This document shows positions 13,086 to 33,969 of a DNA stretch of 34,152 nt, in pieces. Source of the stretch: Gammaproteobacteria bacterium. Lineage in GTDB: Bacteria; Pseudomonadota; Gammaproteobacteria; Steroidobacterales; GCA-2729495. A program made the position numbers and the translations under genes. The stretch is from assembly GCA_013001905.1 (NCBI GenBank), contig JABDLC010000013.1, forward strand, positions 1 to 34,152, in the 5' to 3' direction. The notes beneath the pieces were generated by a model that saw only the letters and a list, made by a program, of their open reading frames with translations, made no database searches and had not been told where the DNA came from. How positions within the stretch are numbered: position 1 is the stretch's first letter; every line of letters starts with the position of its first letter.

Positions 13086-13309
13086 TTTCGTGACGCATTT
13101 AACAGTATCGGAGGCGCTCAAAGCGCGACATTGTACCCCATGAAAATCGAGCGGAAGCGGCTGGCTGAACGCCGTTTCCGGACTTAGCGCACGTTATGTG
13201 AGGAAGCATTTGCTTACCCTTGTATCTCGGGAATCGCGTTATGGCGATCGGACGATGTGCGCCGGGTGCGTACACCGGGACAAACCAGGGACGGCCTGAC
13301 TGTTACAAG
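13086..13309. other. Intergenic region between mrp and the HEAT-kinase unit
   Basis: This 224-base region separates divergent genes and should hold promoters for both. It contains one small hairpin, GCGCTCAAAGCGC (13114-13126), near the mrp side. I found no strong -35/-10 pair. The kinase frame is open through 13220-13309, with a TTG at 13220 and an ATG at 13241 that has GGGA about eight bases upstream, so part of this stretch may be coding. Confidence 0.4.
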
Positions 13310-15715
13310 ATGAAATTCTTGACTGCCATGAAAGCTGAACGCTGTGTTTCGCAATTGCTTGCGGAACCGGATGCCAATACGCCCGTGGCGCAGAAAGCAC
13401 TCGCCAGTCTCAAGAACAGCGGTAAAGGCGCGATACCGATTCTTATCGACGCGCTCGGCAGCGCCGACCGCTATCAAACCATCGGCATTGTCGATGCGCT
13501 GACCGCGCAGGTCAGCGACAAGAACTTCAAGGAAATCGCAAAGGGCCTTTGCCATCCCAACGAACGCTGCGTGGCCGGCGTTTCCTGGGCATTGTCTTCA
13601 TCGAATGACTTTCAGATCGATCTGCTGCCTGAGTTGCTGCAGATGGATGACATCTCGACACATGCTGTGCTCGACATCATGCGTGCACACCTCGATCGAC
13701 TCAATGTGCGCAAGCTGTTGCAAGTCGCGTATCAACTCGAGCCACGCGAAAAGTCGGCCGTGTTCAAGATGATCGGTGAACGCGCTACATCGGACATCGT
13801 TCCGGACCTGATTTCCCGCACGGCAGGCAAGGACACGTCAGCCCGTGTCCATATCATCGAGATTCTGGCGAAATTTCCGACGCCGGAAGTCATGAAAACG
13901 ATTCAGTCCATGCTGAAGGATCCCAACAGGCAGGTACGCGGAGCGGCCCTCGATGCGCTGGCTGATTTTCAGTCGGGTCACGATATCGAGCAGATCTGTG
14001 CGCTGCTCATGGACCCCGATCTCGACGTGCAGAGTAAGGCAGTGGATCTGGTCGTCCGCCTGCGTCATCCCGACACGTGCAAGCATCTGGTCAGTGTGCT
14101 GCAGGACGAATCGGAATACACGCGCCGCTCGGCCGTTGAGGTGCTTAACGAGCTGGCCGAACCGTCCAGTATTAAGTACCTGCTGATGGCTATTGGTGAT
14201 GGCGACTGGTGGGTGCGCTCGCGTGCCTGCGACGCACTCGCAAGCATCGGTGGCGACAAAGTGCTCAGCGCGGTTATGGAGCTGATCAATGACAAGGATG
14301 AAAACATCCGCCGCTCGGCTATCGAGATTCTCAACCAGACCAAAGACGAACGCGCAGTCAAACACCTGATCAATGCCACCAAAGACGACGACTGGTGGGT
14401 CAGCGAGCGCGCTGTCGATGCGCTGGCTGAAATCGGCAGCAAAGAAGCCCTCCCCCGACTGAAAGAAATGCTCAGCGGCAATCCGAAAGCACTGCCCGCG
14501 GTGCTTCGTGCGATCGGCAAACTCGGCGACATCGGCGATTCGGACATGCTCAATGACGTGATGGCCATGCTGCAACGGCCTGAGCCTGATGTCATCGTCG
14601 CGACCGTGCAGACACTGGGCCGCTTGACGAATGAAAGCAACGCCGAGTTAGTGAAAGGCACCATCGAGCCACTGCAGCAGGTCGGCAACGAATCAATCGC
14701 CAAAGCCGCGCGCGATGCAGTCGATAAAATCAGTAAGCGCTACACCGACTCGCAAATCATTGGCGACCAGAAAGCCGCCAGGATGGCGGAGCCTGCGCAC
14801 ACGATGCTGATCGACGATGTCGAAATGCAGAAACTGGCAGCGCAGATGGCACCGCAGGCAGCCCAGCAGCTTGATATCAGCTTGCTGAAACCGGGCGAAA
14901 TTATTGAAGACCGCTACAAGTACATCGAGAAGATCGGTAAAGGCGCATTCGGCACGGTGCTGCTGGTCGAAGACACCGTGGTCGACGAACGCCTGATCCT
15001 TAAATTTCTTAATCCGAACGTGGCAGGCGATGAAGAGATGTTGCAGCGCTTTGTGCACGAACTGCGATTCTCACGCAAAATTACGCACAAAAATGTCATC
15101 CGTATCTATGACTTCCTGAATTTGTCGGGCAGCTACGCCATATCAATGGAGTTCTTCCCGTCCCACACGCTGGGCGCCGAAGTCTCCGGCAAGAAGCCGC
15201 TGCCGGTGGAGAAAGCAGCCGGCTGGGCATGTGATATCGCCACCGGCATGGCGGTCGCCCATCAGGTCGGAATTATCCATCGCGACCTCAAGCCGGCGAA
15301 CCTCCTCATCAACGATGAAGGCCTGCTGAAAATCGTGGACTTCGGTGTGGCAGCTGCCGCTGGCGGCGGCGACACCAATCTGACCAAAACGGGTTACGTG
15401 ATCGGCTCGCCGAAATACATGGCGCCGGAGCAGATTCTGGGCAAGAAAGTCGATCATCGTGCAGATATTTACAGCCTCGGTGTCATTTTCTACGAGATGC
15501 TTACCGGCGTGCCCCCTTATACCAAGGGCGATCACATGGCCGTGATGTATCAGCACGTGCAGGGTAAGTGTCTCAAGGTCAACGAAGCGAATCCGGAGAT
15601 TTCTCAGACGCTGGCCGATGTGGTGAACCGCGCAATGTCGGTCGACAAGATGAAACGCTTTGAGTCGATGGACGACATGAGCCAGGCCATTGCGGCCGCA
15701 GTGGAGGCCGGCTGA
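13310..15715 (+). CDS. HEAT-repeat Ser/Thr protein kinase, in operon with two PilT ATPases
   Basis: An 801-residue cytoplasmic protein: residues ~40-500 are tandem HEAT-like helical repeats and ~535-795 a eukaryotic-type (Hanks) Ser/Thr kinase. Two repeats share a DWWV core with Trp pairs at 300/301 and 362/363, a 62-residue period that equals two 31-residue repeats. The kinase looks active: glycine loop GKGAFG, Lys565 in LILKF, HRDLKPAN (catalytic Asp659), DFG with Asp677, and APE in YMAPEQI. No membrane segment or PASTA domain is present, unlike PknB-type receptors. The stop is two bases before the pilT ATG. The inferred role is control of pilus retraction by phosphorylation or scaffolding. 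The start is uncertain: ATG 13310 fits the domain best, and ATG 13241 has the better ribosome site. Confidence 0.88.
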   Translation: MKFLTAMKAERCVSQLLAEPDANTPVAQKALASLKNSGKGAIPILIDALGSADRYQTIGIVDALTAQVSDKNFKEIAKGLCHPNERCVAGVSWALSSSNDFQIDLLPELLQMDDISTHAVLDIMRAHLDRLNVRKLLQVAYQLEPREKSAVFKMIGERATSDIVPDLISRTAGKDTSARVHIIEILAKFPTPEVMKTIQSMLKDPNRQVRGAALDALADFQSGHDIEQICALLMDPDLDVQSKAVDLVVRLRHPDTCKHLVSVLQDESEYTRRSAVEVLNELAEPSSIKYLLMAIGDGDWWVRSRACDALASIGGDKVLSAVMELINDKDENIRRSAIEILNQTKDERAVKHLINATKDDDWWVSERAVDALAEIGSKEALPRLKEMLSGNPKALPAVLRAIGKLGDIGDSDMLNDVMAMLQRPEPDVIVATVQTLGRLTNESNAELVKGTIEPLQQVGNESIAKAARDAVDKISKRYTDSQIIGDQKAARMAEPAHTMLIDDVEMQKLAAQMAPQAAQQLDISLLKPGEIIEDRYKYIEKIGKGAFGTVLLVEDTVVDERLILKFLNPNVAGDEEMLQRFVHELRFSRKITHKNVIRIYDFLNLSGSYAISMEFFPSHTLGAEVSGKKPLPVEKAAGWACDIATGMAVAHQVGIIHRDLKPANLLINDEGLLKIVDFGVAAAAGGGDTNLTKTGYVIGSPKYMAPEQILGKKVDHRADIYSLGVIFYEMLTGVPPYTKGDHMAVMYQHVQGKCLKVNEANPEISQTLADVVNRAMSVDKMKRFESMDDMSQAIAAAVEAG

Positions 15716-15717
15716 CC

Positions 15718-16815
15718 ATGGCACGCATTGACGCATTCCTGAAGCTCGGCCTCACACAGAACTGCTCCGATATCCATCTTGCCGTTGGCGTACCCCCGCT
15801 GCTGCGGATGCACGGCGACCTGCTACCGATCAAATTCCGTGATTTGGGCGCCGAAGAGCTGGATAGCTACGTCAACGAGATCATGACCGAGTCGCAGCGG
15901 GATCGCTTCGACAGCGGCGAGGACCTCGACTTCTCGTACGTATCGGAAGACGATGTCCGCTATCGCGTCAATTTATTCCGCAAGGCGACCGGCGTCGGCG
16001 CCACGTTCCGCTTTATCCCGACCGACGTACCAACCCTTGAGAGCCTCAACCTGCCGCAGGTTTGCAAAGATGTTTGCGACAACCATCAGGGCATGGTTCT
16101 GGTCACGGGCTCGACAGGCACCGGTAAGTCGACCACCCTCGCCGCGATGATCGATTACCTCAATCGCCATCGTAATCTGAACATCATCAGCCTCGAGGAC
16201 CCGATCGAATTCGTCCATCGCAGTGCCAAATCGCAGGTCATTCAGCGCGAACTCGGCACGCACCTCACGAGCTTTGCTGACGGCATTCGTTCGTCACTGC
16301 GCGAAGACCCCGACGTCATACTCGTCGGCGAAATGCGTGATGCCGAAACCATCAGCATGGCGATGACAGCAGCGGAAACCGGCCATCTGGTGTTTGGCAC
16401 GCTGCACACGACCGGCGCAGTCAAAACCATCGACCGCATTATTGATGCCCTGCCGAGTGATCAGCGGGAACAGACCAAGGCATTCCTGTCGCAGAGCCTC
16501 AAAGCCGTCATGACACAGAACCTCATCAAGACACCTGACGGCAAAGGCCGTCATGCCTGCCTCGAGGTAATGGTCATGACCCGGGCAATCGCGAATCTGA
16601 TACAGACGGATCAGAACCATCAGATCTTCAGCCAGCTGCAAACCGGCGGCGACATGGGCATGCAGACCATGGATCAGGCATTGCTGGATGCGGTGCAGGC
16701 CAAACACGCCGATCCCGATCATGCGTTCCGTTTTGCACAGGACAAAACACTGTTTCAGAAATTCGTCACCGACACGGCGATATTGCGGCGCGTCGACCTT
16801 CAGGAACCAGTGTAG
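15718..16815 (+). CDS. PilT/PilU-type pilus retraction ATPase (first copy)
   Basis: A 365-residue hexameric secretion ATPase of the PilT family; these motors pull type IV pilin subunits back into the inner membrane to drive twitching. The N-terminal PAS-like domain carries CSDIHLAVGVPPLLRMHG. Walker A is GSTGTGKSTT (Lys137), the Asp box LEDPIEFVH, Walker B DPDVILVGEMRD, and the His box GHLVFGTLHTT. The PilT C-terminal region AIANLIQTDQNHQIFSQLQ and GMQTMDQALLD is recognisable but diverged. The gene starts two bases after the kinase and ends three bases before the second copy. With 28 acidic or basic C-terminal changes against classic PilT it may play the PilU role, but I cannot separate the two by eye. 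Confidence 0.9.
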   Translation: MARIDAFLKLGLTQNCSDIHLAVGVPPLLRMHGDLLPIKFRDLGAEELDSYVNEIMTESQRDRFDSGEDLDFSYVSEDDVRYRVNLFRKATGVGATFRFIPTDVPTLESLNLPQVCKDVCDNHQGMVLVTGSTGTGKSTTLAAMIDYLNRHRNLNIISLEDPIEFVHRSAKSQVIQRELGTHLTSFADGIRSSLREDPDVILVGEMRDAETISMAMTAAETGHLVFGTLHTTGAVKTIDRIIDALPSDQREQTKAFLSQSLKAVMTQNLIKTPDGKGRHACLEVMVMTRAIANLIQTDQNHQIFSQLQTGGDMGMQTMDQALLDAVQAKHADPDHAFRFAQDKTLFQKFVTDTAILRRVDLQEPV

Positions 16816-16818
16816 GCC

Positions 16819-17883
16819 ATGGCTGATATCAATCAATATCTGCAGATGCTTGTTGAACGCGGCGGGTCAGACCTGCACATGATTGCGGGACTGCCGCCGC
16901 GCATGCGCGTCTTCGGCGATCTGGATGTTTTCGAAAACGAACCACTGACGGCAGCGCGCACGGAAGAATTGCTGCGCGAGATCATGCCGGAAAAAGCGAT
17001 TGCTGAATTCAACGAACACGAGTCAGCAGACTTCGCTTACAACATTGAAGGAATGGCCCGTTTCCGCGTCAATATCATGCGCCATCTCGGCGGTATGGGC
17101 GGCGTATTCCGAGCCATTCCGCGCAGCGCCAAGTCGCTGGATGAACTCAACATGCCGCCGGCGCTGAAAGCACTCTGTCAGCAGACGCAGGGGCTGATAC
17201 TCGTGACCGGTAAAACCGGTTCGGGCAAATCGACAACGCTGGCGGCAATGATCAACGAGATCAACGCCAGTCTTAAAGGCCATATTCTGACGATTGAAGA
17301 CCCGATTGAGTTTGTTCACGATCGCAACAAGTGTCTTATCAGCCAACGTGAAGTCGGCGACCACACACACAATTTCGCCGACGCATTGCATTCGGCATTG
17401 CGCGAAGACCCCGACGTGATTCTGGTGGGCGAAATGCGTGACCTCGAGACCATCAGCATCGCAGTGACTGCTGCAGAGATGGGCATTCTGGTGATGGGCA
17501 CACTGCACACTAACGGCGCCGCGCAGACAGTCGACCGCATCGTAAATGTATTCCCGACTGACAAACAGCCTCACGTCCGGACTATGTTGTCGACCTCGCT
17601 AAAAGGCGTGGTGTCGCAGCAGCTCGTGCCGCGCAAAGAAGGCGACGGCCTGCATGCCGCGCTTGAGATCCTGATCAACAACTCAGCAACCGCCAACCTG
17701 ATCCGGCAGGGCAAACTTGATCAGCTGGAAACGGCTATGCAGTCGGGCCGTAAGAGCGGTATGTGCACGATGGACAGAGCTCTGAGCGACCTGTTCGACC
17801 GCGGCCAGATCACCGGGCGCACGGCATACGATTTCGCGAACGACAAAGAGAAGTTCCGCGAACACAAGGACATTGCTATCTGA
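16819..17883 (+). CDS. PilT-type pilus retraction ATPase (second copy)
   Basis: A 354-residue PilT-family ATPase, clearly related to its neighbour but not a recent duplicate. SDLHMIAGLPPRMRVFGDL opens the N-terminal domain. Walker A is GKTGSGKSTT (Lys137 at the same position as in the first copy), the Asp box IEDPIEFVH, Walker B DPDVILVGEMRDLETI, and the His box MGILVMGTLHTNGA. The segment ATANLIRQGKLDQLETAMQS corresponds to the AIRNLIRE region that is diagnostic of PilT, which makes this copy the more PilT-like of the two. It starts three bases after the first copy. No other pilus gene (pilB, pilC, pilin) is in the window, so the pilus machine is encoded elsewhere. Confidence 0.9.
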   Translation: MADINQYLQMLVERGGSDLHMIAGLPPRMRVFGDLDVFENEPLTAARTEELLREIMPEKAIAEFNEHESADFAYNIEGMARFRVNIMRHLGGMGGVFRAIPRSAKSLDELNMPPALKALCQQTQGLILVTGKTGSGKSTTLAAMINEINASLKGHILTIEDPIEFVHDRNKCLISQREVGDHTHNFADALHSALREDPDVILVGEMRDLETISIAVTAAEMGILVMGTLHTNGAAQTVDRIVNVFPTDKQPHVRTMLSTSLKGVVSQQLVPRKEGDGLHAALEILINNSATANLIRQGKLDQLETAMQSGRKSGMCTMDRALSDLFDRGQITGRTAYDFANDKEKFREHKDIAI

Positions 17884-17914: not shown

Positions 17915-19945
17915 ATGTCGCAAGCCGCCCGCAAACTCCTTGTCACCAGTGCACTCCCGTACGCCAACGGCCCGATTCATATCGGTCATCTGGTCGAGTA
18001 CCTGCAAACCGATATCTGGGTGCGTTTTCAAAAGCTTATCGGCAACAACTGCACTTATATATGTGCCAGCGACGCGCACGGCACGCCGATCATGCTGCGC
18101 GCGCGCCAGGAAGACATCAGCCCTGAAATACTGGTTGAGAACTTCAGACTGGAGCATCAGCAGGATTTCGCGGCATTCCACATCGCTTTCGACAACTACC
18201 ATTCGACGCACTCGGAAGAAAATCGCGAGCTGGTAGAGCAGATCTACACAGAGCTGGATGCCAAGGGCCTGATCGAACGGCGCACCATCGAGCAGGCCTA
18301 CGACGAATCAGCGGGCATGTTTTTACCTGACCGCTTTTTGAAAGGAACCTGCCCGCGCTGTCAGGCGGAAGATCAGTACGGTGACAATTGTGAAGTGTGC
18401 GGCGCGACCTACGCTACCAGTGAACTGATTGCGCCACGGTCGATTCTTTCCGATACCGCACCGGTCATGCGTGAGTCTGAGCACTTGTTCTTCCGGCTGG
18501 CCGAGTTTGAATCCATGCTGCAGGAATGGACTCGTGGTGAGGCGGTCGATGATGCCGTGGGTAAGAAACTGCAGGAATGGTTTGATACCGGTCTGCAGGA
18601 CTGGGATATCTCTCGTGATGCGCCGTATTTCGGTTTTCGCATTCCCGGCACCGATGACAAATATTTCTATGTCTGGCTCGATGCGCCGGTGGGCTATCTG
18701 GCAAGCTTCCTGCACCTGTGTGCACGGCGCCCTGACCTCGATTTTGATGAATATTTCGCGAAAGACTCCACGACGGAGCTCTATCACTTCATCGGCAAAG
18801 ATATCGTCTATTTTCACACGCTCTTCTGGCCCGCAGTGCTCGAGGGCGCAAACCTGCGCAAACCAACAGGTGTATTTGCCCACGGCTTCCTGACCGTCAA
18901 CGGGCAAAAGATGTCGAAATCCCGCGGCACCTTTATCGCAGCGCGCACCTATCTGCAGCATCTCGACCCGGAGTACCTGCGCTACTACTACGCCGTCAAG
19001 CTGAGCGCGGGCATTGAGGACATCGACCTCAACCTCGAAGATTTCGTACAGCGCGTCAACTCCGACCTGGTGGGTAAGCTGGTCAACATCGCGAGCCGCT
19101 GCGCCGGGTTCATCGCGCGCGGAGCCGACGGGCGGCTGGCCGCGACGCTCGAGCGACCAGAGCTCTACAACACCTTTGTTGACGCCGGCGACAGCATTGC
19201 CGGGCACTACGCGGCGCGTGACTACTCCCGCGCCGTGCGTGAAATCATGCGCCTGGCTGATATGGCCAATCAGTACATTGATGAACGCAAGCCGTGGGTG
19301 CTCAACAAAGAAGGCAAGACAGACGAAGTGCAGCAGGTCTGCACGCAGGGGCTGAACCTGTTTCGCGTGCTGATGACATATCTGACACCCGTGCTGCCGG
19401 CGATGGCGGACAAAGCCGCCGCATTTCTGCAGTGCGGTTTCGAGCACTGGGATGACCGCAATACGCCGTTGCTCGACACGACCATCGGTCAGTTCACGCC
19501 GCTACTGACACGGGTTGACCCCGACAAGGTGGCACACATGGTGGCTGACTCAAAAGCAGAACCTGCCACCTCCGGTGACAACTCATCCGAAACCACTCCA
19601 TCCGACGACAAGACGACGGATAACAATATGATCAGTATTGATGACTTTCTGAAAGTCGACCTGCGGGTCGCGAAAATCCTGCACGCCGAAGCAGTGGAGG
19701 ATGCGGATAAACTGTTGCGGATTACCGTCGATGACGGCGATGGCGAGCGGCAGGTGCTGGCCGGCATCCGCAAAGCCTATGACCCCGCTACCCTGAAGGG
19801 ACGGCATGTTGTCATTGTGGCGAATCTGAAACCGCGCAAGATGCGTTTTGGCACGTCAGAAGGCATGATACTGGCAGCAGGCGAAGACGATATTTTCCTG
19901 CTGGGCCCCGACGACGGCGCACGTGCCGGCATGCGGGTGCGCTAA
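17915..19945 (+). CDS. metG: Methionine--tRNA ligase
   Basis: A 676-residue class I synthetase charging initiator and elongator tRNA-Met. The signature HIGH is at residues 22-25 and KMSKS starts at Lys332. Two CxxC knuckles, Cys146/Cys149 and Cys159/Cys162, form the zinc site of the MetG1 type. After an acidic Ser/Thr-rich linker (about 545-570) comes a C-terminal tRNA-binding dimerisation domain starting [18 protein letters not shown]. Length matches E. coli MetG (677). The ATG lies 31 bases after the second PilT gene and rnfA follows 25 bases after the stop, so metG may be transcribed with both. Confidence 0.97.
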
Positions 19946-19970
19946 CGCCACACAGGATTGCACCGCCGCC

Positions 19971-20552
19971 ATGACAGATCTGATCCTGATCATACTGGCC
20001 ACGGTACTCGTCAATAACTTTGTCCTGACCAAGTTCCTGGGGCTGTGCCCGTTTCTGGGCGCCGGTTCGCGTTTCGAGACGGCCACCGGTATGGCGCTGG
20101 CGACGACCTTTGTCCTCACGCTGGCATCAGGGCTCAGTTATCTCGTTAATACATGGCTACTCGTGCCCACCGGCACAGGTTATCTGCGGCTCCTCGCATT
20201 TATCGTGATCATTGCCGGCACCGTGCAATTTACCGAATTGATGATTCGCCGGGCGAGCCCTCTCCTGCATCAGGTGCTGGGAATTTTTCTGCCCCTTATT
20301 ACGACTAACTGCGCGGTGCTGGGCATCGCGCTGTTGAACGTGCAACAAAGTACCAGCCTGCCCGAGGCACTGGCTTACGGCCTCGGCGGCGGGCTGGGCT
20401 TCAGCCTGGTCATCGCGCTGTTTGCAGGCTTACGCGAGCGCACCGCGGCGGCCGATGTGCCTGTCGCATTTCGCGGCACAGCCGTGTCGCTGGTGACCGC
20501 CGCTTTTATGGCGCTGGCCTTTATGGGCTTTGCCGGACTGATCAGGGGCTGA
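19971..20552 (+). CDS. rnfA: Electron transport complex subunit RnfA/RsxA
   Basis: A 193-residue inner-membrane subunit of the Rnf complex, which moves electrons between NADH and ferredoxin-like carriers coupled to ion transport, or keeps SoxR reduced (Rsx) in enterics. Six hydrophobic helices are visible. [19 protein letters not shown] near the N-terminus and [13 protein letters not shown] in the middle are the RnfA signatures, each holding a cysteine thought to bind an intramembrane Fe-S centre. RnfA and RnfE are paralogues with opposite orientation. ATG 19971 gives the normal N-terminus. It is the first gene of the rnf run. Confidence 0.96.
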
Positions 20553-20562
20553 TGCAGTTGCT

Positions 20563-21075
20563 ATGACCATCGCGATCATCATCATGAGCAGCATTGCCGC
20601 CTGCATCGGCGCCGCCCTGTGGCTCGCGCGTCGCGGGGTTACCCAGAGCCCGGACTCGCCGGTCGAGAAGATCGACGCATTGCTGCCGCAAACTCAGTGC
20701 GGGCAATGCGGCTACGCGGGTTGCCGTCCCTATGCGGAAGCTATTGCAAATGGCACTGCTGACATCGATCAGTGCGCACCCGGCGGTGATTCAACCGCGA
20801 CCGCGTTGGCGAACCTACTGGGTCGCCCGGTAACTTCGATAAATCCGGCTTTCGGCAATTACGAACCGGCGTCCGTTGCGGTTATCGACGAAGATGCATG
20901 CATCGGCTGCGCGCTGTGCATCGCTGCGTGCCCCGTGGATGCAATTGTAGGCGCACATCGCTATACCCACACTGTGATTCGTTCTGAATGCACGGGCTGC
21001 AAACTGTGTCTGCCGCCCTGCCCGGTCGACTGCATTCGCATCGAACCGTTACGCATGCCGCGCAAGGCTGCCTGA
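20563..21075 (+). CDS. rnfB: Electron transport complex subunit RnfB/RsxB
   Basis: A 170-residue Fe-S protein with an N-terminal membrane anchor (residues ~3-23). The Fe-S cap domain has Cys46, Cys49, Cys54 and Cys71 for one [4Fe-4S] cluster. Two ferredoxin-type clusters follow, CIGCALCIAACP (113-123) and CTGCKLCLPPCP (143-153). This is the short gammaproteobacterial form; clostridial RnfB is much longer with extra clusters. It starts ten bases after rnfA and ends four bases before rnfC. All expected cluster ligands are present. Confidence 0.96.
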   Translation: MTIAIIIMSSIAACIGAALWLARRGVTQSPDSPVEKIDALLPQTQCGQCGYAGCRPYAEAIANGTADIDQCAPGGDSTATALANLLGRPVTSINPAFGNYEPASVAVIDEDACIGCALCIAACPVDAIVGAHRYTHTVIRSECTGCKLCLPPCPVDCIRIEPLRMPRKAA

Positions 21076-21079
21076 CGCC

Positions 21080-22588
21080 ATGCGGGTCGACATTAGTCAC
21101 GCAGTAACACCCGAATGGGGGGTGCCGTTTGCGGCGCAAGAGCGGGTACTCGACCTGCCGGTGCACGCGGCACCGCTGCCGGCCGTAGCTATAGTCCCGC
21201 TGTTGCAGCATTCCGGCGCAGCAGCAGAACCCATCGTTGCGGTCGGCGATGTCGTCCATACGGGACAGCCGATCGGCACCGTCCCGGACAACGCACTCGG
21301 CGCACGTGTCCACGCACCGCTTTCAGGTCGCATCGTTGCGATTGAGAAAGGCCCGGTGCCCGGGCGCCGTGATGCGCTGTGTGTGCATATAGAGAACGAT
21401 GGCAACGATACGCGCTGGCAGGGTTACACCTCGCAACCGCGGCCACTCAGCCTGTCGACATCAGCATTGCGGCATGCGGTGATTGAAGCCGGAATCGTGG
21501 GGCTCGGAGGCGCAACCTTCCCGGCCGGCGTCAAACTGAATCGCGGCAGCGGGGTCAACACGCTGATACTCAACGCGGCGGAATGTGAACCCGTCATCAA
21601 CTGCGACGATGCGCTCATGCGTCAGGACAGCGACATGATGCTGCTGGGTGCACAGATCATGCTGCGCATACTTGAAGCTGATGAATGCATCGTCGCTCTG
21701 AAACAGGGCATGTCGCGGACGCTCGAAATCGTCACCGCAGCGATCGACAGACTGGATGACGACCGGTTTCGCATCGTGCTGGTGCCGTCTGTGTACCCGG
21801 TTGGTGGCGAAGCTCAGCTTATCCAGATGCTGACCGGTGACGAGATCCCGTCGGGCGGCCTGCCGTGGGACAGCGGCGCTATCTGCCAGAATGTCGGGAC
21901 TGCGGCCGCAATCGCGCATTTCCTGACACTGGGCGAACCGCTGATCAGTCGACTTGTTACGGTCTGCGGCGGTGGCATCAGCAAGCCCGGCAACTATGTC
22001 ACACGCATCGGCACCCCTATCCGTGACCTGCTGACCGTGGCGGGCGGACAGCCGACGGGAGCAGCAACCGTGATCATGGGCGGCCCGATGATGGGCATCG
22101 CGCTCGACAGCATCGACATGCCTGTGACCAAAGCCACCAATTGTCTATACGTGCCGACTGATGATGAATTGACAGCACAGCCGGAACCTGTCGCCTGCAT
22201 CCGCTGTGGTGACTGCGCGACGGTGTGCCCTGCCGCGCTGACACCGCAGATTCTTTTGCAGACCCTGCGCACCAATGACTACGACAGCCTGCAGCGCCTG
22301 GGGCTGCCTGACTGTATTGAGTGCGGTTGCTGCGATTACGTATGCCCCAGTCATATACCGCTGACTCGCGAATTCATTCGGGGCAAGCAGCAACTCTGGC
22401 AAATTGGCTTCGAAAAACGCCGGGCTGAACAGGCGGCGAAACGTGTTAACGCCCGCGAACAACGTCTTGCGACGGCTGAGCGCAACGACGCCGATGCGGA
22501 ATTGCATGACGTCAGCGACGGTGACGCAGCGAAAGCCAGACTGGATGAATTGCTGCGTCGGGTCGATGATGAGAACAACGCGCCATGA
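21080..22588 (+). CDS. rnfC: Electron transport complex subunit RnfC/RsxC
   Basis: A 502-residue peripheral subunit that carries the NADH and FMN site of Rnf. The glycine-rich GLGGATFPAGVKL is the NADH/FMN-binding motif shared with NuoF, and LNAAECEPVINCDD follows as usual. Two [4Fe-4S] motifs lie at CIRCGDCATVCPA and CIECGCCDYVCPS, then SHIPLTREFIRGKQQL. The C-terminus is a charged helix rich in Arg, Glu and Ala of about 70 residues, much shorter than the long Ala-rich tail of E. coli RsxC. Its stop overlaps the rnfD start (ATGA). Confidence 0.96.
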   Translation: MRVDISHAVTPEWGVPFAAQERVLDLPVHAAPLPAVAIVPLLQHSGAAAEPIVAVGDVVHTGQPIGTVPDNALGARVHAPLSGRIVAIEKGPVPGRRDALCVHIENDGNDTRWQGYTSQPRPLSLSTSALRHAVIEAGIVGLGGATFPAGVKLNRGSGVNTLILNAAECEPVINCDDALMRQDSDMMLLGAQIMLRILEADECIVALKQGMSRTLEIVTAAIDRLDDDRFRIVLVPSVYPVGGEAQLIQMLTGDEIPSGGLPWDSGAICQNVGTAAAIAHFLTLGEPLISRLVTVCGGGISKPGNYVTRIGTPIRDLLTVAGGQPTGAATVIMGGPMMGIALDSIDMPVTKATNCLYVPTDDELTAQPEPVACIRCGDCATVCPAALTPQILLQTLRTNDYDSLQRLGLPDCIECGCCDYVCPSHIPLTREFIRGKQQLWQIGFEKRRAEQAAKRVNAREQRLATAERNDADAELHDVSDGDAAKARLDELLRRVDDENNAP

Positions 22589-23568
22589 AGACGCCTTCGG
22601 CACCGCATTGGCTGGGCCGCAACAGCGTGCCGCTCATGATGCAGCGTGTACTGCTGGCACTGCTTCCTTTTTACGTGACGTCTACGTTTTTCTTTGGCCT
22701 CGGCGTGCTCAGCAATGCGTTGCTGCTGATTGTTTTTTGCTGCCTGGCTGAAGCGCTTGCGCTGGCAGCACGGGGTCGCGACATTCGCGGCGGCCTGCAG
22801 GATTACAGTGCTGTCGTAGCCGCGCTGCTGATCGCCCCCTGCCTGCCGCCGGGCACAACCTGGTGGGTGCTCGCGGTGGCGGCGGTGTTCGCCATACTGC
22901 TGGCGAAACATGTGTATGGCGGCCTCGGCCACAACGTGTTCAATCCCGCCATGGCGGGATACGTCGCTGTACTGATTGCGTTCCCGCAACACGTCGCCGA
23001 ATGGCCTGCAATGGCGGCAAGCGCCGATGGAATCAGCGATGCAATAGTCGATGCAAGCACCGGCGCCACGCCGCTCGATACTGTGAAAATGCAGTTGGGC
23101 CAGATGCGCACCATGACGGAAATTACCGCGACTGAGCAGTTCGGCCTGCTCGCAGGTTACGGATGGGAATGGATGAACCTGACAGCACTGGCGGGCGGAC
23201 TGTGGCTGCTCAGAAAAGGCGTGATGAGCTGGCACGCGCCGGGCGCCATGTTACTGACGATGGGCTTGCTGTATTTCGGCTTTTACGCATTCTCGCCTGC
23301 GACCCAACCGTCACCGGTGCTCGGCCTGCTTAGCGGCGGGACGATGCTCGCAGCATTTTTTATCGTCACCGATCCGGTGTCCGGTGCCGCGACGCCGCTT
23401 GGCCGCATCATTTTCGGCGCCGGCACTGGCGCACTGTGTTTTGCAATGCGCGCCTGGGGTGCGTATCCGGACGGCATCGCCTTTGCAGTCCTGTTTATGA
23501 ATATGTGCGCGCCGCTGCTCGATCGCTACACCCTGCCGCGGATCTACGGCCATCGGAAACGGCCATAA
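22585..23568 (+). CDS. rnfD: Electron transport complex subunit RnfD/RsxD
   Basis: A 327-residue membrane subunit with about nine or ten hydrophobic helices. STGAT at residues 158-162 lies in the position where RnfD and NqrB carry FMN bound through a phosphoester to threonine (expected Thr162). GHNVFNPAMAGYVAVLIAFP and FFIVTDPVSGAATPLGRIIF are strongly conserved RnfD segments. The flavin transferase ApbE needed to load FMN is not encoded in this window. The gene overlaps rnfC by four bases and is followed by rnfG after 22 bases. Confidence 0.95.
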   Translation: MKTPSAPHWLGRNSVPLMMQRVLLALLPFYVTSTFFFGLGVLSNALLLIVFCCLAEALALAARGRDIRGGLQDYSAVVAALLIAPCLPPGTTWWVLAVAAVFAILLAKHVYGGLGHNVFNPAMAGYVAVLIAFPQHVAEWPAMAASADGISDAIVDASTGATPLDTVKMQLGQMRTMTEITATEQFGLLAGYGWEWMNLTALAGGLWLLRKGVMSWHAPGAMLLTMGLLYFGFYAFSPATQPSPVLGLLSGGTMLAAFFIVTDPVSGAATPLGRIIFGAGTGALCFAMRAWGAYPDGIAFAVLFMNMCAPLLDRYTLPRIYGHRKRP

Positions 23569-23590
23569 GAAACGGACATGAACCAAGATC

Positions 23591-24241
23591 ATGAATGACA
23601 GCCCTGCTGACAAAAGCCCCGGACTCATCGCCGGCATCGTCATACTCGTGGTGCTTGCAGCCGTCGTCACTGCAGTTCTGGCACTGACCAGCGACGCGAC
23701 CGCGGTGCGTCGTGAGCAAAATCAGGCCGTGTATGCAGCGCGATTGCTGCGCGATGTGATTCCTGACGCCGACTACGCGCCGCAACCGGGCGCAATTGTG
23801 TTGCCGATAACGGGTGCGGAAACGCTCGGCACCACGGAGGCACTGCCCGCCTACCCGCTGTACCGGGACGGCAACGCTGTCGGCGTCGTGCTGACCGTCA
23901 TAGCGCCGGACGGCTACGTCGCCCCGCTGACCCTGCTGGTGGGTATCGACCGGGAGGGTAAACTCACCGGCGTGCGGGTCACAGAGCATCGCGAAACGCC
24001 CGGCCTCGGTGATCAGGTTGAGCGCAACAAGTCGGACTGGATCACGACCTTCGACGGCCGCTCACTCGCAGAAACGCCGCGAACGGCGTGGGCGCTCCGC
24101 CTCGACGGCGGTGAATTTGATCACATCAGTGGCGCGACCATTACCAGCCGAGCGGTTGTCAACGCGGTGGGCAATGCACTAAAGCACTACGACAGCAGTC
24201 GCGACCAGTTGCTCACGCCACCGGCAACCACCGACGACTAA
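23591..24241 (+). CDS. rnfG: Electron transport complex subunit RnfG/RsxG
   Basis: A 216-residue subunit anchored by one N-terminal helix (about residues 11-33), with the rest periplasmic. SGATITSRAVVNAV at residues 180-193 is the FMN-attachment motif, with Thr183 the expected flavinylated residue. HRETPGLGDQVE is the other conserved RnfG block. In relatives rnfE follows at once; here the next gene is on the opposite strand and rnfE lies about 9 kb away. A six-codon ATG-to-TGA frame (23578-23598) overlaps the rnfG start and could couple translation. Confidence 0.95.
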   Translation: MNDSPADKSPGLIAGIVILVVLAAVVTAVLALTSDATAVRREQNQAVYAARLLRDVIPDADYAPQPGAIVLPITGAETLGTTEALPAYPLYRDGNAVGVVLTVIAPDGYVAPLTLLVGIDREGKLTGVRVTEHRETPGLGDQVERNKSDWITTFDGRSLAETPRTAWALRLDGGEFDHISGATITSRAVVNAVGNALKHYDSSRDQLLTPPATTDD

Positions 24242-24795: not shown

Positions 24796-25731
24796 TTACG
24801 ACTCTGCGTAGGCCGCAGGGCCGACTTCTTTATACAGCTCGTGCCAGCGACGCGCTTCAATGTAATCAAGCAACGTTTCTGACTCGCCTTCCAATTCTGA
24901 AATACGCGCTTTAATGACGTCACCGATGCTGATCAGCCCGAGCACCTGATCATCTTCAACCACCGGAAGATGCCGGATGCGCCGGTCACTCATACACGCC
25001 ATCACGCTCATCATATTGTCATCCGGGCCCGCCGTAATGACATTGGTCGTCATAATGGCGCTCGCCGGCGAGTTTAAGACATCAACAGATTCTTCGGCCA
25101 GACCTCTGACAACATCGCGCTCGGACAACACGCCGGCAATGTTGCCATGATCATCGAGTACAAGCACGCTGCCAATGCGATGCTCACGCAAGATTTGCAC
25201 GACCTCACTCACAGAGGTTGACGGCGCAACGGCATGCACATGACCACCCTTTTCTTCGATGATACTGCGCGCCGTTACCCGGTACGCCCATTCGCGTGCG
25301 TGAATGATGCGTACCCAGTTGTCGAGCAATTCCATCGCATAGGTCTGCAAGCGGGAACGCCCGCTGAAGCGGTCGAACATGCGGCCCAACACGCCAAACT
25401 TCGGCCGGTAATCGAAATACAGCCTGATCAGCACCGTGCCGGCGTCTTCCGCGACGCTGCAGGTGTAGCGCAGCTGCGCCGCCGGCACCGGAAAATCGCC
25501 CGTGACAGCCATGCTGTAGAGACGCCCTTCTTCCAGACCGACCCGTTCCTCTTCCCAGTGATTCCCGTCACGCCCGGTAAGACGACGCCGCAATGAGCCG
25601 TCAGCCGTCTCCAGCATCTCCATCCGGCGCGCGGCCGGCGGCAAACCAGGGTCGCCCTCAAGGTCCGAAACAATGCTCCAGACCATGCTGATATGCGCCT
25701 TCACGCGACGCCTCACTTCGACCACAGCCAT
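24796..25731 (-). CDS. SRPBCC (START-like) domain fused to a CBS-domain pair
   Basis: A 311-residue soluble protein with two modules. Residues ~1-145 resemble an SRPBCC/polyketide-cyclase-like ligand-binding fold: VRRRVKAHISMVWSIVSDLE at the start and a run of beta strands ending in a long helix with YAMELLDNWVRIIHARE. Residues ~165-290 are a tandem CBS pair, each repeat carrying the usual VxxV…RIGSVLVLDD…GVLSERDV and RRIRHLPVVEDD…GLISIGDV pattern that binds adenine nucleotides. The start at 25731 follows GGAG by about seven bases. The combination suggests a sensor coupling a hydrophobic ligand to energy charge, but this is inference and the function is unknown. It is divergent to the DUF2244-cox operon. 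Confidence 0.82.
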   Translation of the reverse strand: MAVVEVRRRVKAHISMVWSIVSDLEGDPGLPPAARRMEMLETADGSLRRRLTGRDGNHWEEERVGLEEGRLYSMAVTGDFPVPAAQLRYTCSVAEDAGTVLIRLYFDYRPKFGVLGRMFDRFSGRSRLQTYAMELLDNWVRIIHAREWAYRVTARSIIEEKGGHVHAVAPSTSVSEVVQILREHRIGSVLVLDDHGNIAGVLSERDVVRGLAEESVDVLNSPASAIMTTNVITAGPDDNMMSVMACMSDRRIRHLPVVEDDQVLGLISIGDVIKARISELEGESETLLDYIEARRWHELYKEVGPAAYAES

Positions 25732-25895
25732 GCGTGTCTCCGGGTGATTTCCCCCCATCCTACTACCCATCGGGCCGGCTACCGAAGCGCTTTCGCAACA
25801 GGCCGTCGACGACCGCCATTCGAGCAGCGGCCATGCTAGGTTATTGGTATGTTTTATATACTGTTTTTAGCCGTTTTCCGGTTGTGCTGCGCTGC

Positions 25896-33289: not shown

Positions 33290-33303
33290 AGGATGACCAA
33301 TTG
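33290..33303 (+). promoter_or_regulatory. Ribosome binding site fixing a TTG start for rnfE
   Basis: AGGA at 33290-33293 is seven bases upstream of TTG 33301, which gives the normal RnfE N-terminus. The nearby ATG at 33293 is in another frame and stops after three codons at 33302-33304, overlapping the TTG. So rnfE has no in-frame ATG at the expected place, and TTG is the likely initiator. Confidence 0.7.
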
Positions 33304-33969
33304 ACTCAGTACAAACAAATACTTACCGATGGCCTTTGGACACAGAATCCGGGGCTGATCCAGTTCCTCGGCATCTGCCCTCTGCTGGCAGTCAGCAATT
33401 CGCTGGTTAACGGGCTCGGGCTGGGGCTGGCAACGCTGTTCGTACTCATCGGCAGTAATTTTATCGTGGCACTGCTGCGACCGGTGCTGAATCGCGACGT
33501 ACGCCTGCCGATATTCGTGCTGATCATTGCAACGCTGGTCACACTCGTTGAACTGGTCGCAGAAGCCTGGTTTTTTGATCTGTGGCTGAGCCTCGGGATT
33601 TTTCTGCCGCTGATCGTCACCAACTGCGTCATCCTTGCAAGAGCCGAAAGTTTTGCCTCACGACAACCGGTCTCGGCCGCCGTCGTTGACGGCATCGCCC
33701 ACGGGCTCGGTTTCGCTGCGGTTCTCATTTTGCTGGGCGGAATGCGTGAACTGATCGGCAACGGCACCTTGTTTGCAGGCGCCGAGATGCTGTTTGGCCC
33801 TGCCGCGACAGGTATGGAACTGCGTTTTTATGACGGCGGCTTCCTGCTGGCACTGCTGCCGCCGGGCGCGTTTCTGGGCCTCGCCTTGCTCGTTGCGGTA
33901 CGTAACATCATCGAGCAGCGCAGCAGCAGTGCTGACAGTCGTAGCGATGTCACAACAGACACCGCATGA
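33301..33969 (+). CDS. rnfE: Electron transport complex subunit RnfE/RsxE, separated from the rnf operon
   Basis: A 222-residue membrane subunit of Rnf, paralogous to RnfA with inverted topology. The N-terminus ILTDGLWTQNPGLIQFLGIC followed by PLLAVSNSLVNGLGLGLAT is diagnostic, and FLPLIVTNCVILARAESFAS in the middle and GGMRELIGNGTLF are further RnfE hallmarks; the paired cysteines for the membrane Fe-S centre are kept. Six helices are visible. It is intact, so the split from rnfG 9,059 bases upstream need not abolish the complex, but it must be expressed from its own or a distant promoter. The stop overlaps the nth ATG, the usual rnfE-nth junction. Confidence 0.95.
   Translation: MTQYKQILTDGLWTQNPGLIQFLGICPLLAVSNSLVNGLGLGLATLFVLIGSNFIVALLRPVLNRDVRLPIFVLIIATLVTLVELVAEAWFFDLWLSLGIFLPLIVTNCVILARAESFASRQPVSAAVVDGIAHGLGFAAVLILLGGMRELIGNGTLFAGAEMLFGPAATGMELRFYDGGFLLALLPPGAFLGLALLVAVRNIIEQRSSSADSRSDVTTDTA

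Follow-up and report, generated by a model that had tools for sequence, protein, structure and literature searches.

Many bacteria possess additional PilT-like ATPases for reasons that are largely open, as is the matter of what selects among these proteins. The locus described here raises both questions by setting a Ser/Thr kinase gene directly ahead of two genes for PilT-family ATPases. The locus lies in a 34,152-nucleotide stretch of gammaproteobacterial DNA that was analysed as a whole and is referred to below as the window. All three genes are on the plus strand: K (13310..15715) encodes a cytoplasmic HEAT-repeat Hanks-type kinase of 801 aa, TA (15718..16815) a PilT-family ATPase of 365 aa, and TB (16819..17883) a second such ATPase of 354 aa. 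The original prediction had spaced these genes 2 and 3 bases apart, and its coordinates, strand and gaps are all correct. An in-frame TTG is found at 13220, upstream of the K ATG at 13310; the ATG is where the alignment starts in most homologues. The predicted lack of pilus genes nearby also holds for the genes scanned in the rest of the window, which are housekeeping or respiratory. Rnf complex genes occupy 19923-24241 and a further Rnf-Nqr subunit gene lies about 9 kb off at 33301-33969, with cytochrome oxidase genes and a PAS histidine kinase in between, while a gene on the minus strand at 24796-25770 encodes one protein with Polyketide_cyc2 (START-like) and CBS domains.

The architecture first proposed for K, a Hanks-type kinase behind about 14 HEAT repeats, is borne out by 14 predicted helix pairs and an intact kinase domain, with Pfam matches to HEAT_2 (6e-48) and Pkinase (2.9e-51). 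The AF2 model (mean pLDDT 84, pTM 0.50) comprises a HEAT solenoid of 14 two-helix repeats (residues 25-457; 13382..14680, plus strand), a cap helix, a disordered linker (480-517), and a kinase domain of PknB-like fold (residues ~530-800; 14900..15709, plus strand) whose activation loop is disordered. The low pTM fits a flexible linker, and the relative placement of the two halves of K is therefore not fixed by the model. The kinase domain has the Lys, HRD, DFG and activation-loop Thr of the Hanks type, and alignment places the catalytic Asp at residue 659 (15284-15286, plus strand), as had been claimed. Because eight kinase residues (K565, H657, R658, D659, K661, N664, D677 and T692) do not vary among all 90 homologues aligned, K is predicted to be active, and very probably functions as a kinase. 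Its kinase domain is nearest by sequence to Stk1, StkP and PknB and by fold to PknB, PknA and Stk1. K is nonetheless not a member of the PASTA kinase equivalog NF033483, against which it scores 266 bits (cut-off 450), and it has no PASTA domain. Conservation of the solenoid, in alignments of both 49 and 90 sequences, is concentrated in residues 272-376 (14123..14437, plus strand), where a pattern is duplicated as RRxAVEVLN...DxDWWVRxR and RRxAxEILN...DxDWWVxER. This duplicated RRxAxEILN/DxDWWV stretch is likely, as we infer from its conservation, to be a partner-binding face. In one relative (G209, L159:2585-4071), K is represented by two adjacent open frames, which could be due to a frameshift, to misassembly or to a genuine separation of scaffold and kinase.

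The association of K with TA extends well beyond this genome. Across 274 Gammaproteobacteria genomes drawn evenly from the class, K and TA occur together in 35 (23 families), 239 have neither, and no genome has only one of the pair. The first class search had returned K in 33 genomes and TA in 35; the two apparent cases of TA without K (G197 and G209) were rejected, as K lies directly upstream in both and had merely missed the E-value limit. The Fisher p for this co-occurrence is ~5e-45, a value that ignores shared ancestry. K and TA are linked in 33 of the 35 carriers. In G186 the contig breaks off at K, with TA on another contig, and G163 is the only genome in which K and TA-TB are truly separate, on different contigs with other surroundings (L130 and L169). 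A search of a GTDB collection gave 73 K loci, 70 of them testable once L106 and L108, whose match is confined to the kinase domain, and L062, whose contig ends at K, had been left out. TA lies directly downstream of K on the same strand in all 70, and TB then follows in nearly all loci with a long enough flank, L064 being without it. The K-TA-TB order is kept in relatives whose kinase identity is as low as 37%, and it recurs in three or more genomic contexts. The genes of the window's lineage lie between mrp/apbC and metG, and those of distant carriers (37-46% kinase identity) are located elsewhere in the genome. The intergenic gap in relatives has a median of 13 bp at both junctions, with several overlaps, and such tight junctions suggest coupled expression.

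A neighbourhood unique to this genome would have told against the original prediction; K-TA-TB is instead widely conserved and, as judged from these comparisons, the arrangement is old. A chance neighbourhood is ruled out by the co-occurrence of K with TA together with their changing contexts, and the evidence for a functional link between K and TA/TB is strong. Within the window's own order, K is present in 83 of the 117 genomes sampled (71%). A phylum-wide sample of 398 genomes, with the top two candidates per genome scored, returned K only from the window's own genome; since this sample and its scoring differ from those of the class sample, it bounds the range of K weakly. A plasmid origin was also considered and rejected, as the tblastn plasmid matches listed cover the kinase domain only and none covers 80% of K.

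TA and TB score 423 and 451 bits, respectively, against the PilT/PilU family profile TIGR01420 (pilT_fam; cut-off 319.1 bits), and the residues of Walker A, Walker B, the Asp box and the His box are kept in the consensus of each. In a tree of 79 sequences, TA forms one clade (97/100) and TB another (100/97), and the two clades stand together beside PilT with moderate support (91/82), away from PilU. Both fall outside the PilT clade and outside the PilU clade, and neither is thus an orthologue of canonical PilT or PilU. The AIRNLIRE motif is needed for retraction by PilT; TB keeps A..NliR.Gk, and TA keeps only AI..Li, so that the label of retraction motor is not secure for TA. The two ATPases had been called retraction motors, of which the assignment to the PilT/PilU family stands and the strict functional label is not yet supported, given the separate clades and the divergence of TA at AIRNLIRE.

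Canonical pilT is present in 12 of 12 carriers of a first set and in six of seven of a second, with one genome (G043) common to both; the copy in G085 has only 61% identity, and the sole carrier in which none was found (G273) has a contig that starts inside a pilU-like gene. The presence of canonical pilT in nearly every carrier examined indicates that TA and TB are extra motors, and the idea that they are the cell's only PilT/PilU was rejected on the same grounds. The type IVa pilus gene pilM likewise accompanies pilT in most carriers examined, although its co-occurrence with K is not discriminating, since most of the class has a PilM match. The window's own genome has pilM and, on contig C68, a pilB-like gene. 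Its contig C80 has a canonical pilT next to genes resembling yggS and proC, together with pilU and one more gene of pilU type, these C80 genes being named by sequence recognition. This third, PilU-like gene follows pilT-pilU at L110:4356-5411 (G000:C80); such a gene is found in nine of the 13 carrier genomes of the tree, and its copies do not form one clean clade.

The genes that flank K-TA-TB in relatives point to phosphorylation signalling. Among 32 loci with long flanks, an FHA protein follows TB in 12, and a divergent PP2C phosphatase lies upstream in eight. PP2C and FHA proteins are usual parts of Ser/Thr phosphorylation circuits, in which a writer is accompanied by an eraser and readers. 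A divergent FHA-GAF-HD protein occurs in five loci and an FHA-class III cyclase beyond TB in six, and together these four kinds of neighbour lend independent support to the earlier idea of a kinase system coupled to motors. In a class-wide search, nearly all FHA copies of highest similarity to the query (45-100% identity) lie beside K-TA-TB. Paralogues at 35-46% identity are widespread, also in genomes without K, and the FHA family as a whole therefore does not track K. Directly upstream of K in 23 of the 32 loci is UP6 (L124:3779-4264 and homologues), a protein of 150-200 aa with only a weak, below-cut-off match to DUF6812. UP6 was not detected in the window's genome, whose lineage also shows no linkage of FHA and PP2C genes to K-TA-TB. 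An operon on contig C52 of the window's genome (L197:5107-9170, G000) encodes a CHASE2-Ser/Thr kinase, a PP2C phosphatase and an FHA protein. Its PP2C (37% identity) and FHA (33%) are homologues of the genes that flank K-TA-TB in other lineages, and an FHA-cyclase is encoded on contig C143; by homology, a phosphatase and reader shared with K are possible.

Taken together, these comparisons support a kinase-controlled accessory motor module. This reading draws on the co-occurrence of K and TA, the tight junctions, the persistence of the triad in varied contexts and the phospho-signalling neighbours, as well as on the invariant kinase residues, the kept ATPase motifs and the canonical pilT of carriers; against it stand the unlinked FHA and PP2C genes and missing UP6 of the window's lineage, and the separation in G163. 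In such a module, TA and TB would be accessory PilT-type ATPases, hexameric as is usual for their family, operating alongside the canonical PilT and PilU, presumably those of the cell's type IVa pilus. K would be a soluble scaffold kinase whose HEAT arm may bind the motors or the pilus base, probably via its RRxAxEILN/DxDWWV face, and whose kinase domain may phosphorylate the motors or an adjacent partner. Phosphorylation would then set, in one direction or the other, whether the accessory motors engage; PP2C phosphatases could reverse the mark and FHA proteins could read it, with both encoded beside the triad in some lineages and candidates elsewhere in the window's genome. We put the chance that K, by binding and phosphorylation, sets the engagement of the accessory motors at somewhat below even. 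More tentative is the specific form in which K binds TA/TB hexamers by its HEAT arm and phosphorylation chooses them over PilT/PilU at the pilus base, which we regard as plausible and rather less than probable.

The main rival reverses the direction of information flow. TA and TB would sense pilus load or engagement, and bound K would phosphorylate FHA proteins and second-messenger enzymes, namely an HD-domain phosphodiesterase and a class III cyclase. This proposal is consistent with the neighbours in several lineages, which encode an FHA-GAF-HD protein and an FHA-cyclase instead of components of the pilus, and with the loss from TA of most of the PilT AIRNLIRE. Also in its favour, a review lists cytoplasmic retraction machineries among the proposed sources of input to the Pil-Chp system (PMC11656802). 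However, only 11 of 32 loci, a minority of lineages, have second-messenger genes linked to K-TA-TB, and the kept ATPase motifs indicate that TA and TB are probably active motors rather than sensors only. We consider a reversed flow unlikely, though a serious competitor.

TA and TB could also, under the control of K, act in a secretion system or pilus-like machine other than the type IVa pilus, or not act as motors at all. Either role would accord with the absence of pilus genes linked to the cassette, both in the window and among recurrent neighbours, with the pilT and pilU that carriers already have, and with the divergence of TA at the PilT C-terminal motif. Yet the nearest relatives of TA and TB are PilT proteins rather than GspE, DotB or TraJ, and the carriers examined have the type IVa genes pilT and, mostly, pilM, leaving this alternative improbable. 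That the operon is shared for expression only, with K acting on unrelated targets apart from TA/TB, is very improbable: there is no known biochemical link between K and the ATPases, and K is unlinked from TA-TB in G163, but K and TA have been gained or lost together across 23 families of the sample and are adjacent in differing contexts, and both are still present even in G163.

Returning to the module of kinase and accessory motors, the finding that K and TA were never seen one without the other in the genomes sampled, with K placed ahead of the same motors, suggests a phosphorylation switch on pilus motors that has not been described. A survey of the open-access literature returned no description of PilT phosphorylation, nor of PilT paralogues associated with a HEAT kinase, and in a 2024 review on how pilus assembly is controlled the words threonine and HEAT do not appear. 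A switch acting directly on the motors would give many Gammaproteobacteria families a means of pilus control distinct from Chp/Pil, cyclic di-GMP and FimX. If correct, the module would bring Ser/Thr signalling of the eukaryote-like kind into the regulation of pilus dynamics, and would predict a substrate class for an orphan kinase family that 71% of the genomes sampled from the window's order carry. With two extra PilT paralogue families that have a constant partner kinase, selection among motors becomes testable.

Each component of the module has known counterparts. The kinase domain of K is closest, in sequence and fold, to those of the PASTA-type Hanks kinases PknB, StkP and Stk1, but K differs from these in having an N-terminal HEAT solenoid and no PASTA match, and in scoring well under the NF033483 cut-off. 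In type VI secretion, the kinase PpkA, the PP2C phosphatase PppA and the FHA protein Fha are tied to a contractile or motor machine, and the same three kinds of component accompany the motors in some relatives; the ATPases with K are instead PilT-type, and no type VI secretion genes were found among recurrent neighbours within several kb. The archaellum regulatory network likewise has FHA and phosphatase partners and, to our knowledge, no paired PilT-type motors. Its kinases ArnC and ArnD, which influence archaellum motility (PMC5300886), resemble K as Ser/Thr kinases controlling a type IV pilus-like machine, but they are archaeal and their network governs archaellum expression. Paired retraction ATPases are known from type IVa pili as PilT/PilU (PMC6821130), which share with TA/TB the family, the Walker A/B, Asp and His boxes and the tandem arrangement of paralogous ATPases, and multiple PilT paralogues are known in Geobacter (PMC5065972). 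TA and TB differ from PilT/PilU in forming separate clades, in being encoded at a distance from the yggS-proC pilT locus, in having a kinase gene at the head of their operon, and in including a member divergent at AIRNLIRE. In Acinetobacter baylyi, the accessory extension motor TfpB and the PilB inhibitor CpiA (PMC8213720, PMC11656802) involve extension motors and a binding inhibitor rather than retraction-type motors and a kinase; the parallel with K-TA-TB lies in an additional motor alongside the canonical one and in a regulator specific to one motor, as proposed for K.
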